Shown here: one piece after another, positions 19,032 through 33,846 of the stretch
How the letters are laid out: every line of letters begins with the position of its first letter
Numbering within the stretch: position 1 is the first letter of the stretch
Origin: an uncultured Acidimicrobiaceae bacterium
GTDB taxonomy: Bacteria > Actinomycetota > Acidimicrobiia > Acidimicrobiales > Ilumatobacteraceae
Assembly (NCBI GenBank): GCA_903919215.1
Contig: CAIXHI010000107.1
Span: forward strand, 1 to 34,282
Reading direction: 5' to 3'
DNA: 34,282 nucleotides
The notes under the pieces: model-generated
What the model was told of the DNA's origin: nothing
Seen by the model: the letters and a program-made list of their open reading frames with translations, nothing else
The model's database searches: none
Translations under genes and position numbers: made by a program

Positions 19032-19919
19032 CTAGCCGAGCGCGGCGATGGCGTCGGCGACGGCGAGGATGCGCTGGGCGTTGGCGACGTGCAGGTTCTC
19101 GATCATCCGACCGTTGTAGGTGACGACACCTTTACCTTCGGCGACGGCGGCCTCGAACGTGGCGATCAGGCCACGGGCGTGCTCGACATCATCGGCGGAC
19201 GGTGCCCACACGTCGTTGCACACGTCGACCTGCGACGGATGGATGAGGGTCTTGCCATCGAAGCCCATCTCGAAGCCCTGCACGCACTCGGCAAGGAACC
19301 CGGCCTCGTCCTTGATGTCGTTGTACACGCCATCGAGGATGACCTTGCCGGCCTCACGTGCGCCGAGCAGCGCGGTGGCGAGGTGCGGTACGAGCGGGTG
19401 ACGACCAGCGGCACCGAGCGTGCTGCGCACTTCGCGGGCCAGGTCGTTGGTGCCCATCACCAGCACGGTGACTCGCCAGTGAGCGGCGAGCGCGCGAACG
19501 TCGAAGATGGCGGTCGGGGTCTCGATCATCGCCCAGATGCGGATGTCGTGGCGCGCCCCAGCGTGGTCGAGGATGTCGGACACCTCGTCGAGGTACTTGA
19601 CCGACCCAACCTTGGGGATGACGACCGCCGCCGCTGCGGACTGGCCAGCGGCGATGAGGTCGTCGCGGCCCCACGGTGTGTCGAGACCGTTGCAGCGGAT
19701 CGCAAGTTCGCGGTTGCCGTACTCACCCGAGGAAGCGGCGGCCACGGCGTTGGCGCGTGCGGCTGCCTTGGCATCGGGGGCGACAGCATCCTCGAGGTCG
19801 AAGATGATCGCGTCTGCGGCGATGGTCTTCGCCTTCTCCAGGGCACGTTCGTTCGCCGCCGGCATGTACAGCACGGAGCGACGGGGGCGCAGATCGGAGG
19901 TGACGTGGTCAGAAGTCAT
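19032..19919 (-). CDS. HpcH/HpaI (CitE-like) CoA-ester lyase or thioesterase
   Basis: [67 protein letters not shown]; overlaps upstream paralogue by 11 bp. Confidence 0.88.
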
Positions 19920-20970
19920 AGCTCGCCTTCAGTTCAGGGTCGCGGGCGGCCAACTCATGCGCGAGTGCAACCACCACCTTGCACTGCTTCACAGAAGCAT
20001 CGTCCTCCATCTTGCCGTCCAGCATGATGGCGCCCGTACCATCGCCCATCGCGTCGATCACCCGCTGTGCCTGGCGCACATCCTCGGGCCGTGGGCTGAA
20101 CACCTTCTTGGCGATGTCGATTTGCACCGGGTGCAGGCTCCAAGCGCCCACGCAGCCGAGCAGGTAGGCGTTGCGGAACTGGTCTTCGCAGGCGACGGTG
20201 TCCTTGATATCGCCGAACGGACCGTAGAACGGCAACAGTCCGAAGGTGACACACGCATCGACCATGCGGGCCAGCGTGTAGTGCCACAGGTCTTGCTGGA
20301 ACACGGTGCGGTCGGCGCCGTACTGCGGCCCGTCGGCACCGGTGGGCGGGTCGGCGCGCACCAGGTAGTCGGGGTGACCGCCGCCGACGCGGGTGGTCTT
20401 CATGCGACGGTTGGCCGCCAGGTCGGCTGGTCCGAGCGACAGACCCTGCATGCGCGGCGAGGCGGCGCAGATCTCCTCGATGTTCACCATGCCGCGAGCG
20501 GTCTCGAGGATCGCGTGCACCAGGATCGGCTTCTTCAGGCCGGCCTTGGCTTCCAGCTGTGCCAGCAGGCGATCGACGTAGTGGATGTCCTCCGGGCCCT
20601 CGACCTTCGGCACCATGATGACGTCCAGCTTGTCGCCGATCTCGGAGACCAGGGTGACGAGGTCGTCGTGACCCCACGGCGAGTCAAGGCTGTTGATGCG
20701 CGTCCAGAACTGGGTGCTGCCGAAGTCGACCGTCTTGCCGACCTTCACCAACCCGGCGCGGGCGGCCTCCTTGTCGGCCATCGGAATGGCGTCTTCCAGG
20801 TTGCCGAGCAGGATGTCAACGGTGGGGATGATCTCCGGCAGCTTCGAGACGAGCTTCTCGTTCTGCGGCGGGAAGAAGTGGATGACACGGCTGGGGCGGA
20901 AGGGGATCTCGCGCACCGGCTCGGGGGCACCGACGGCCAAGGGTTTGAAGAAGTCACGGGGGCTACGCAC
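19909..20970 (-). CDS. Malyl-CoA / beta-methylmalyl-CoA lyase-type HpcH/HpaI protein
   Basis: [111 protein letters not shown]; long (353 aa) Mcl-type. GTG start. Confidence 0.85.
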
Positions 20971-20976
20971 GATTCA

Positions 20977-20986
20977 AGGTTAGGTT
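20977..20986. promoter_or_regulatory. Symmetric bidirectional -10 element AGGTTAGGTT (ANNNTANNNT)
   Basis: + strand -10 TAGGTT 20981-20986, 6 nt before GTG 20993; - strand -10 TAACCT 20982-20977, 6 nt before GTG 20970; hexamers share TA. Confidence 0.65.
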
Positions 20987-20992
20987 CGTTGC

Positions 20993-21676
20993 GTGCTTGC
21001 GCAGAACTTCGACGCGATCCTGTTCGACGCCGGTGGCATTTTTGTGTTGCCCGATCCCACAGTGCTCGGCCCACTGCTGGCCTATCACGGGGGCGATCCC
21101 GCCATCTCGGTGCATATCCGCGCGCACTACGCGGCTATGGCGGCGAAGAGCGCGGCCGGCGTCACCGAGAGGGACTGGCAACCCTATAACGAGGCGTATG
21201 TGCGATCGGTGGGAGTGCCCGAAGAGGAAGTCTCGCTGGCCACCACGGTGCTGGAGCAGACCCGCAACGCCTACACGTGGCGATGGCCGATCCCCGAGAG
21301 TCTGATTGCCATCGAAGGTCTGCGCTCCATGGGCATGCCAATGGGCGTGGTCAGCAACGCCAGCGGTCAGATTGCCGAAGTGCTGGCCCGCAGTGGCGTC
21401 TGCCAGCAAGGCGACGGCGCGTACACGCCGATGCGCGTGATCATCGACAGCCACCTCGTCGGCGTCGCCAAACCGGATCCGCACATCTTTGATTTTGCGC
21501 TCGCGTATTTCGACGGCATCGAGCGCAGCCGCATCGCCTACATCGGTGACTCGGTGACGATGGACATCGGCGGAGCCCGCGCCGCAGGCCTCTACCCGAT
21601 TCTGCTTGACCCCTATGACGACTGGCCGAACGCCGACTTCCACCGTCTGCAGAGCCTTGAGGAGTTGCTCGGGTGA
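20993..21676 (+). CDS. HAD-superfamily hydrolase
   Basis: DAILFDAGGIFVLPD, GVVSNASGQ, VGVAKPDPHIFDFAL, IAYIGDSVTMDIGGARAAGLYPILLDP. Confidence 0.9.
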   Translation: MLAQNFDAILFDAGGIFVLPDPTVLGPLLAYHGGDPAISVHIRAHYAAMAAKSAAGVTERDWQPYNEAYVRSVGVPEEEVSLATTVLEQTRNAYTWRWPIPESLIAIEGLRSMGMPMGVVSNASGQIAEVLARSGVCQQGDGAYTPMRVIIDSHLVGVAKPDPHIFDFALAYFDGIERSRIAYIGDSVTMDIGGARAAGLYPILLDPYDDWPNADFHRLQSLEELLG

Positions 21677-31545: not shown

Positions 31546-33567
31546 TCAGGCCAGTTCGGCGAGGAGGAACGTGAGCACGCGAGCCTCGTCGCGCCAGGCT
31601 TCGTAACGTCCGCTGGGGCCACCGTGGCCGGCACCCATCTCCATACGCATGATCAACGTGGCGTCGTTCGTTCGCACGGCGCGCAGCTTGGCGATCCACT
31701 TAGCCGGCTCGTGGAAGCTGACCCGTGGGTCGTTCAGACCACCGCTGATGAACAGCGCCGGGTATGCCGCAGCGACCGTGTTGTCGTAAGGCGAATAGCT
31801 GAGGATGTAGTCCGCCGCTGGCGAGGTACGGGGGTCGCCCCATTCCTCCCACTCGGTGACGGTCAGCGGCAGCGACGGATCGGACATCGTGGTGACCACG
31901 TCGACGAAGGGGACCTCAGCGACAGCGGCGCGGAACAGGTCGGGGCGCGTCGTGATGCAGGCACCCACGAGGAGGCCGCCGGCGCTGCCGCCGCGAACGG
32001 CGACCTTGCCGCGGTGACCCCAGCCATCGGCGACGAGGTGCTCGACGCAGGCGATGGTGTCGGTGAACGTGTTGCGCTTGTGCTCGAGCTTGCCGTGCAA
32101 GTACCACTCGCGACCCAGTTCGCCGCCACCGCGCGGGTGCACCAGTGCCCACACCGCGCCACGGTCGAGCAGCGACAGGCGGGCCACGCTGAACCACGGG
32201 GGCATCGACGACTCGTAGCTGCCGTAGCCGTAGACGACGAGCGGGGCGGTGCCGTCGATCGGGGTGTCGACATGACGGACGACATCGACCGGCACGCTGG
32301 TCCCGTCCGGGGCGGTCGCCCACAGTCGTTCGCTCGAGTAACGCGTGACGTCGACACCAGGAACCGGGGTCTGCTTCAGCATCGTGCGCTCGCCGGTACG
32401 CACGTGCTCTTCGAACACTGTGAGCGGAGTGGTGAGCGATTGCACCGTGTAGCGCACGGTGTCGGCGGCCCATTCCGGATTCGCATCCAGTTCGAGGTCG
32501 TGCGGTTCGGGAGCGCCCTGCACGGTTCGCTCACTGCCGTCGCGGAACAACACCCGCACCCGTGGCTGGGCATCGGCCCATTCGTGCACCACGAGGTGAT
32601 CGGCGAACGCTTCCACCGACGTGATCCGTCGGCCAGGAACGTGCGCGATGAGTTCGGTCCAGTCGCCGGGCGTGGCGAGAGGCGCCGTCATCAGCCGGAA
32701 GTCAGTGGCATTGAGGTTGGTGAGGACCACCCAGCGATCGCCCCAGTGGTCGACGGTGTATTCCACCTCGGGCCGGCGTGCCGCTACGAGCGTCGGCTGG
32801 CCGTCGGGCTGCGCAGCCGGCACCAGATGCACTTCGCTGCTCAACTTGCTCGCGGATTCGATGATGATCCATTCGCCGCTGCGGCTGAGATCCACGTAGA
32901 CGAAGAATCGTTCGTCGGGTTCGTCGAACACGACGACGTCGGCCGACTGCGGGGTGCCGAGGCGGTGCCGCCACACGGTGCAGGGGCGCATCTGCTCGTC
33001 GGCAGTGACGTAAAACAGCGTCGTGCCGTCGGCCGCCCACGCGGTGCCGCCCCACGTGGTGTCGAGCAGCTCGTCCGCCAAATCGGTACCCGTGGCCAGA
33101 TCGCGAAAGCGCATGGTGTACATCTCGCTACCGTCGGTGTCGCTGCTCCACGCCAGCAGCGTGTGCTGCGGGTTGACATCGAACGCGCTGACCGAGAAGT
33201 ACTCGTGTCCCGCGGCTTCGCGGTTCTCGTCGAGCAGCACCTCGTCTGCGGCCTGGCCGGCGCTGCGGCCGCGGCAGTGGATGGCGTAGCTCGCGCCTTC
33301 TTCGGTGCGAGTGACGTACCACCATCCGTCCTTACGTACCGGTGCCGACAGGTCGGTCTCCTGTACGCGCGACTTGATCTCACCGAAGATCGTTCCCACC
33401 TGCGCCTCGTGGGCGGCGAACCAGGCGTTGGAGTACGCGTTCTCGGCTTCGAGATAGGCGATGACCTCGGGGTCGTCCTTGTCGCGGAGCCACGCCCATG
33501 GATCGGGCATCGGACCCGTCGGTCGTTGCCAGTGGTGGTCGACTTGCTTCGCGATGGGCGCCTGCAC
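31546..33567 (-). CDS. S9 family peptidase (oligopeptidase B / prolyl oligopeptidase)
   Basis: DPWAWLRDKDDPEVIAYLEAENAYSNAWF, YGYGSYESSMPPWFSVARLSLLDRG, VRGGSAGGLLVGACI catalytic Ser; GTG start at 33567 inferred (ORF 33870 start over-extended across the ferredoxin gene). Confidence 0.92.
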   Translation of the reverse strand: MQAPIAKQVDHHWQRPTGPMPDPWAWLRDKDDPEVIAYLEAENAYSNAWFAAHEAQVGTIFGEIKSRVQETDLSAPVRKDGWWYVTRTEEGASYAIHCRGRSAGQAADEVLLDENREAAGHEYFSVSAFDVNPQHTLLAWSSDTDGSEMYTMRFRDLATGTDLADELLDTTWGGTAWAADGTTLFYVTADEQMRPCTVWRHRLGTPQSADVVVFDEPDERFFVYVDLSRSGEWIIIESASKLSSEVHLVPAAQPDGQPTLVAARRPEVEYTVDHWGDRWVVLTNLNATDFRLMTAPLATPGDWTELIAHVPGRRITSVEAFADHLVVHEWADAQPRVRVLFRDGSERTVQGAPEPHDLELDANPEWAADTVRYTVQSLTTPLTVFEEHVRTGERTMLKQTPVPGVDVTRYSSERLWATAPDGTSVPVDVVRHVDTPIDGTAPLVVYGYGSYESSMPPWFSVARLSLLDRGAVWALVHPRGGGELGREWYLHGKLEHKRNTFTDTIACVEHLVADGWGHRGKVAVRGGSAGGLLVGACITTRPDLFRAAVAEVPFVDVVTTMSDPSLPLTVTEWEEWGDPRTSPAADYILSYSPYDNTVAAAYPALFISGGLNDPRVSFHEPAKWIAKLRAVRTNDATLIMRMEMGAGHGGPSGRYEAWRDEARVLTFLLAELA

Positions 33568-33574
33568 GGGAGCC

Positions 33575-33584
33575 AGGGTAACGT
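33575..33584. promoter_or_regulatory. Symmetric bidirectional -10 element AGGGTAACGT (ANNNTANNNT)
   Basis: + strand -10 TAACGT 33579-33584, 7 nt before ATG 33592; - strand -10 TACCCT 33580-33575, 7 nt before GTG 33567; hexamers share TA. Confidence 0.65.
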
Positions 33585-33591
33585 CCGCCGG

Positions 33592-33846
33592 ATGCGGGTG
33601 TGGATCGATCAAGACCTGTGCACGGGTGACGGTCTGTGTGTCGATCACTGCCACGATGTGTTCACACTGCTCGAGGACGGCATCGCCTACGTGATCCAGG
33701 CCGGCACTGTGCTGAACAATCCGGGTGGCTCCAGCAGCCTTGCCGAGGTGGAGTCGCGCTACCAGCAGAACGTCATCGACGCGGCCATCGCGTGCCCCGG
33801 CGAATGCATCTTCATCGAACTCGAGGTCATCCCAAATCGTCCGTAG
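33592..33846 (+). CDS. Small single-cluster ferredoxin with Asp in the second ligand position
   Basis: MRVWIDQDLCTGDGLCVDHCHDVFTLLEDGIAYVIQ...AIACPGECIFIELE; C-x2-D-x2-C-x3-C...CP pattern. Confidence 0.88.
   Translation: MRVWIDQDLCTGDGLCVDHCHDVFTLLEDGIAYVIQAGTVLNNPGGSSSLAEVESRYQQNVIDAAIACPGECIFIELEVIPNRP

Follow-up and report, generated by a model that had tools for sequence, protein, structure and literature searches.

Two kinds of promoter that bear on this locus are known already: bidirectional promoters with a shared −10 sequence, and the leaderless genes of Actinobacteria with their TANNNT box. A bidirectional promoter has been defined by transcription starts lying 7-25 bp apart (PMC10268837). 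In E. coli the preferred start-to-start distances are 18, 10 and 23 bp, with 18 bp the commonest, and for the promoters tested the basal activity was too low for interference (NAR gkag028). For Actinobacteria, two papers describe leaderless promoters with TANNNT approximately 6-7 nt before the start codon, accounting for approximately 20% of genes (Zheng 2011, PMC3160421; PMC3898074). In M. tuberculosis such promoters have no −35 consensus (Cortes 2013, PMC3898074), and closely juxtaposed divergent promoters are common, including the Rv1130/Rv1129c pair for which both mRNAs are leaderless (PMC3898074). A literature search that covered few subscription journals found no paper joining the shared −10 and the leaderless TANNNT into a class, and as far as we could find no earlier count of the compact combination of the two exists for this group.

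The stretch of DNA analysed here, which we call the window, is contig C107 (34,282 bp) of an assembly of 3.59 Mb in 512 contigs. Among named genomes, the closest to this assembly are Acidimicrobiia MAGs that carry the label Acidimicrobiaceae or Ilumatobacteraceae. The features at the divergent ferredoxin and peptidase genes are:

33575-33584, both strands: putative shared two-way core promoter AGGGTAACGT (pattern ANNNTANNNT), by sequence reading
33579-33584, plus strand: ferredoxin −10 box TAACGT, followed by 7 nt (CCGCCGG) and then ATG 33592
33575-33580, minus strand (read 33580-33575): peptidase −10 box TACCCT, followed by 7 nt and then GTG 33567
33592-33846, plus strand: 4Fe-4S ferredoxin of 84 aa, MRVWIDQDLCTGDGLCVDHC..., mRNA predicted to be leaderless (Pfam PF13459, E=1.2e-16)
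31546-33567, minus strand: S9A prolyl oligopeptidase of 673 aa, mRNA predicted to be leaderless (Pfam PF02897, E=1.3e-99, and PF00326, E=8.8e-58)

This confirms the geometry that an earlier note had read at 33567-33592, including the 7 nt on either side and the one TA in common to both boxes. That TA lies at 33579-33580 and is a single step read on either strand, and only 24 bp separate the ferredoxin ATG from the peptidase GTG. In both directions the distance from TANNNT to the start codon falls in the range of 6-9 nt typical of leaderless promoters, while the −10 elements of opposite strands overlap at a preferred offset and the predicted starts are 23-25 bp apart, within the 7-25 bp by which bidirectional promoters are defined. 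The site does not belong to the 18-bp bidirectional class, TANNNTA, where −7T pairs reciprocally with −11A; its sequence is instead of the form ANNNTANNNT. Inspection of the 24 bp by eye gave no AGGAG/GGAGG-like Shine-Dalgarno sequence before either start.

The reading that we prefer, and consider very probable, is that two leaderless promoters have been fused into one bidirectional promoter and that both mRNAs are leaderless. The 24 bp would then be one bidirectional promoter for the housekeeping sigma factor, with two TANNNT −10 elements built around a common T(−12)A(−11) step. Each TANNNT would provide T(−12), A(−11) and T(−7), and since TA is self-complementary the −12/−11 step of one promoter would be the −11/−12 step of the other, leaving a single extra base, an A four bases upstream of T−12, to complete the second box. 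RNA polymerase would bind in either orientation, one at a time, and open the DNA rightward or leftward from the shared TA, with transcription starting at or within 1-2 nt of ATG 33592 for the ferredoxin or of GTG 33567 for the peptidase. With both mRNAs leaderless a ribosome-binding site would be unnecessary, and so would a −35 element. That the promoter fires both ways, where exactly transcription starts and which sigma factor is used are predictions from the sequence, and the size of the polymerase footprint together with the E. coli work suggests that polymerases in opposite orientations would be mutually exclusive. Because basal activity was too low for interference at the E. coli promoters tested, a strong coupling of ferredoxin and peptidase should not be assumed.

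Homologous loci from 80 relatives (L022-L101) were gathered by peptidase similarity, at 57-95% identity. Most of them have a divergent ferredoxin gene (MRVWIDQDLCTGDGLC...) upstream of the peptidase gene, a head-to-head pair whose products have no obvious functional link. The ferredoxin start is conserved as MRVWIDQ, and in approximately 70 head-to-head Acidimicrobiia loci each gene has a TANNNT near its start, at a distance of 6-11 nt for the ferredoxin and of 6-10 nt for the peptidase, the peptidase box being mostly TACCCT. The ferredoxin box is present at this distance in nearly all relatives. The intergenic DNA between the two boxes is unrelated from clade to clade in these loci, and where the peptidase start moves by some codons among clades its TANNNT box moves along. 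Since the boxes track the starts in approximately 70 loci despite diverged intergenic DNA, there is strong evidence that ferredoxin and peptidase are both leaderless with TANNNT promoters. A different conserved start codon in homologues, which the earlier note had named as grounds for refutation, was looked for as well and did not emerge: starts and boxes of both genes are conserved in the approximately 70 relatives.

The same loci bear on the alternative that only one box works. Transcription of the other gene would then begin within the neighbouring gene, and its TANNNT would be a chance by-product of the self-complementary TA. A second TANNNT does need only one more base, and approximately 10% of leaderless promoters have the required A by chance. 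However, where the boxes are well separated in relatives each gene keeps its own TANNNT at leaderless spacing, the 24 bp contain no Shine-Dalgarno sequence for either gene, and the 18-bp geometry, which likewise shares two bases, is without excess (see below). We therefore regard a single working box as improbable.

Two genomes of the window's genus (G155 and G171) have no close peptidase orthologue, with best matches 27-29% identical; either the gene has been lost or it is missing from their assemblies. MAGs labelled Acidobacteria bacterium (L088), Bifidobacterium breve (L082) and Ferrithrix thermotolerans (L041) have an Acidimicrobiia-type peptidase/ferredoxin pair. The peptidases of L088 and L041 group among Acidimicrobiia in the peptidase tree, and the organism labels of at least L088 and L082 are probably wrong.

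To describe the spacing we use the offset d, counted from the first T of one box to the first T of the other, with negative values for overlapping boxes. Only the window and two homologous loci (L022 and L023) have d = −1, and the remaining loci have d = 5, 6, 13, 14, 16, 24, 33, 35, 38, 48-51, 60 and more, beyond 100 bp. A maximum-likelihood tree built from 35 of the peptidases places the three loci with d = −1 in one clade (support 100/99) within a clade (100/100) whose other members have d = 35-60, which suggests that two separate promoters were drawn together once. The overlap here appears to be a single lineage-specific contraction, while the gene pair and both promoters appear to be old. 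Because the core AGGGTAACGT is identical in the window, L022 and L023, the only three sequenced genomes with the fused form at this locus, selection on the TA and selection on the neighbouring bases are not separable here.

Such a history also suits passive compaction, where deletion pushed two ordinary leaderless promoters together and the overlap merely saves space. The spacings just given form a continuum from −1 through 5, 6, 13, 14, 16, 24, 33 and 35 bp and more, the clade of the window is nested in one with larger spacings, and the partner genes are functionally unrelated. Compaction alone, however, does not predict a spike at exactly −1 with almost nothing at 0 to 9, as described below for a related genome. 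Compaction speaks to the reason for the arrangement and does not conflict with the bidirectional-promoter mechanism; we hold it to be a serious possibility, if somewhat short of probable.

Leaderless promoters were counted in G001, a genome of the same genus with a 95% identical peptidase, of which 1.96 Mb and 1783 genes were analysed. TANNNT ends 6, 7, 8 and 9 nt before the start in 176, 153, 87 and 51 of the 1783 genes, compared with a background of approximately 17 genes per offset elsewhere, and the onset is sharp at 6 nt. The excess corresponds to approximately 400 genes, i.e., approximately 22% of the genes of G001 are apparently leaderless. The 459 leaderless promoters tabulated have no −35 or other upstream signal. 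We can rule out that leaderless promoters are generally two-way, as A at −16 is found in 46 of the 459 (10%) against a background of 12.9%. Because this A is not enriched, the motif means nothing without a second start codon.

There are 363 divergent pairs in G001, and both genes are leaderless in 62 of them. Six of these 62 have d = −1, one has d = 2 and none falls elsewhere between −14 and 9, while the others spread from d = 10 upwards: the range from 0 to 9 thus holds 1/62, although within the ferredoxin/peptidase family d = 5 and 6 do occur. The gene call behind this count missed the ferredoxin considered here. A scan independent of gene calls searched the 1.96 Mb of G001 for ANNNTANNNT bordered on either side by an outward-facing start codon whose ORF is 80 aa or longer, and found 12 sites, this locus among them, in the 16 cells with spacers of 6-9/6-9 nt, as compared with 6 in the 180 remaining cells. 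The expectation, taken from cells in which one side is in range, is approximately 1. This spacing-specific excess and the conserved starts together rule out a chance motif. The rate in G001 is roughly one per 165 kb, or 6-12 instances per approximately 360 divergent pairs (approximately 2-3%), and extrapolation suggests about a dozen or more sites per genome, roughly 20.

These numbers come from the genome-wide count that the earlier note had proposed, and the real spacing-specific excess points to a recurrent architecture rather than a duplicated segment. The expectation that the arrangement may be widespread holds in so far as it recurs in the genome and in the order, but it is a minority architecture among divergent pairs, and two cases in 34 kb were lucky when set against the density in G001. 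A second correction concerns the ferredoxin/peptidase locus, where the overlap itself is young and restricted to the window's clade.

Across 119 genomes of the order the pattern with 6/6 spacers occurs 285 times, compared with 113 times with 10/10 spacers and 155 times reversed (6/6 over 10/10: paired Wilcoxon, p about 1e-11). The 18-bp TANNNTA geometry is not enriched in these genomes (106 vs 196 for the reversed control), nor is it in excess in the 1.96 Mb of G001. Non-overlapping boxes are found nine times at d = 6 and eighteen times at d = 20; with two more fixed bases, these patterns are expected less often by chance, but even so the shared TA exceeds its own controls by 130-170, far above both totals. 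Note that part of the excess in the raw pattern is due to chance, since a second box costs one extra base once the TA is present. Outside the class, in 92 genomes that sample the rest of the phylum, the contrast is weaker (182 vs 146, p = 0.02). It is clear, however, in the 61 low-background genomes among them (83 vs 21), a subset picked by control count and therefore with an inflated contrast, and in four genomes of family f86 (14 vs 1).

Base composition suggests why 23-25 bp would be favoured over 18 bp: one TA step is cheaper than two. TANNNTA needs two TA steps, and in G001 A follows TANNNT in only approximately 4% of non-promoter cases. A strong avoidance of A at −6 was considered as the cause of the absent 18-bp class and rejected, since the observed 2.2% against a background of 4.2% mostly reflects general TA scarcity.

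The window contains another site of the same layout, which the earlier note had listed as the first case:

20977-20986 (layout 20968-20995), both strands: AGGTTAGGTT, with 6-nt spacers to GTG 20970 (minus) and GTG 20993 (plus)
19909-20970, minus strand: HpcH/HpaI aldolase-family gene, assigned to the first-case promoter (Pfam PF03328, E=4e-26)
20993-21676, plus strand: HAD-family hydrolase gene, assigned to the first-case promoter (Pfam PF00702, E=3.2e-12)

The geometry does recur as claimed, except that the spacers are 6 and not 7 nt, and the genes and flanks are indeed unrelated (aldolase-family/HAD vs peptidase/ferredoxin by Pfam), which rules out a duplicated segment as the origin of the two cases. 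The window's genome has four sites with 6/6 spacers, and all four have near-identical counterparts in G001. G001 and G003 both preserve the first case, including its two genes and their starts; in G003 identity is approximately 92% for the aldolase-like protein and 76-78% for the hydrolase, and the alignments begin at residue 1 or 5. Similarly, G000 and G002 have in common a site between genes for an HI0933-like flavoprotein and an AMP-binding enzyme, where the proteins are 71-77% identical and both alignments begin at residue 1. The spacers of this site differ between the two genomes, and A...TA...T and the adjoining NNN bases are unchanged. At other sites the partners are again unrelated enzymes (thiolase/NUDIX, QueF/adenosine deaminase family, NYN RNase/HAD and others). 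Because the partner genes are unrelated across cases, compaction is a more likely origin of the arrangement than co-regulation.

A near-palindrome could also be the operator of a transcription factor controlling both genes: ANNNTANNNT is symmetric, and some matches elsewhere are long operator-like palindromes, e.g., CACAAACGCAACGTACGTTTGTGACGTG in G002. At the ferredoxin/peptidase locus, however, the symmetry is confined to the −10 positions while the NNN bases and flanks are asymmetric, the position is fixed at 6-9 nt from both start codons, and the paired genes are functionally unrelated enzymes. We consider an operator very unlikely here. In G002 itself, G002:C25:47576-47603 (L114) and G002:C25:365088-365115 have a long palindrome in common (CACAGACGGAACGTACGTTTGTGGTGTG and CACAAACGCAACGTACGTTTGTGACGTG), and these do look like a transcription-factor operator rather than simple shared −10 boxes.

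Returning to the fused bidirectional promoter, a broader proposal can be made tentatively, as something that may well prove wrong: that a distinct class of minimal promoters is maintained in Acidimicrobiia and probably in other actinobacteria of high GC content, each promoter sending out two leaderless mRNAs from one TA step. Since a TA-poor genome can ill afford a second TA, this class would take the place of the 18-bp geometry known from E. coli, and it would couple unrelated genes by mutually exclusive polymerase binding. As for the fused promoter itself, four fixed bases (A, T, A and T) and two start codons would be enough for the transcription and translation of two divergent genes without leaders, so that hardly any smaller regulatory region between two genes could be imagined. 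The ferredoxin/peptidase pair supplies a natural before-and-after series, with boxes 60, 35, 6 and −1 bp apart, for gauging polymerase competition, and in shared-TA pairs both starts may be misplaced by gene finders that do not take this rule into account.

Compared with the known systems, the promoters described here are like the TANNNT leaderless promoters of Actinobacteria in their spacing, in having neither −35 element nor Shine-Dalgarno sequence, and in serving approximately 20% of genes (PMC3160421, PMC3898074). Those papers treat single promoters, and the passages of PMC3898074 on divergent pairs do not describe a shared TA. The predicted opposite-strand starts over overlapping −10 elements are like those of E. 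coli bidirectional promoters (Warman et al.; NAR gkag028), and with 6-nt spacers the shared-TA geometry corresponds to 23 bp, one of the three distances preferred in E. coli (NAR gkag028). Unlike in E. coli, however, 18 bp is without excess here and 23-25 bp is used, both products are probably leaderless protein-coding mRNAs, and the promoter fills the whole intergenic gap.
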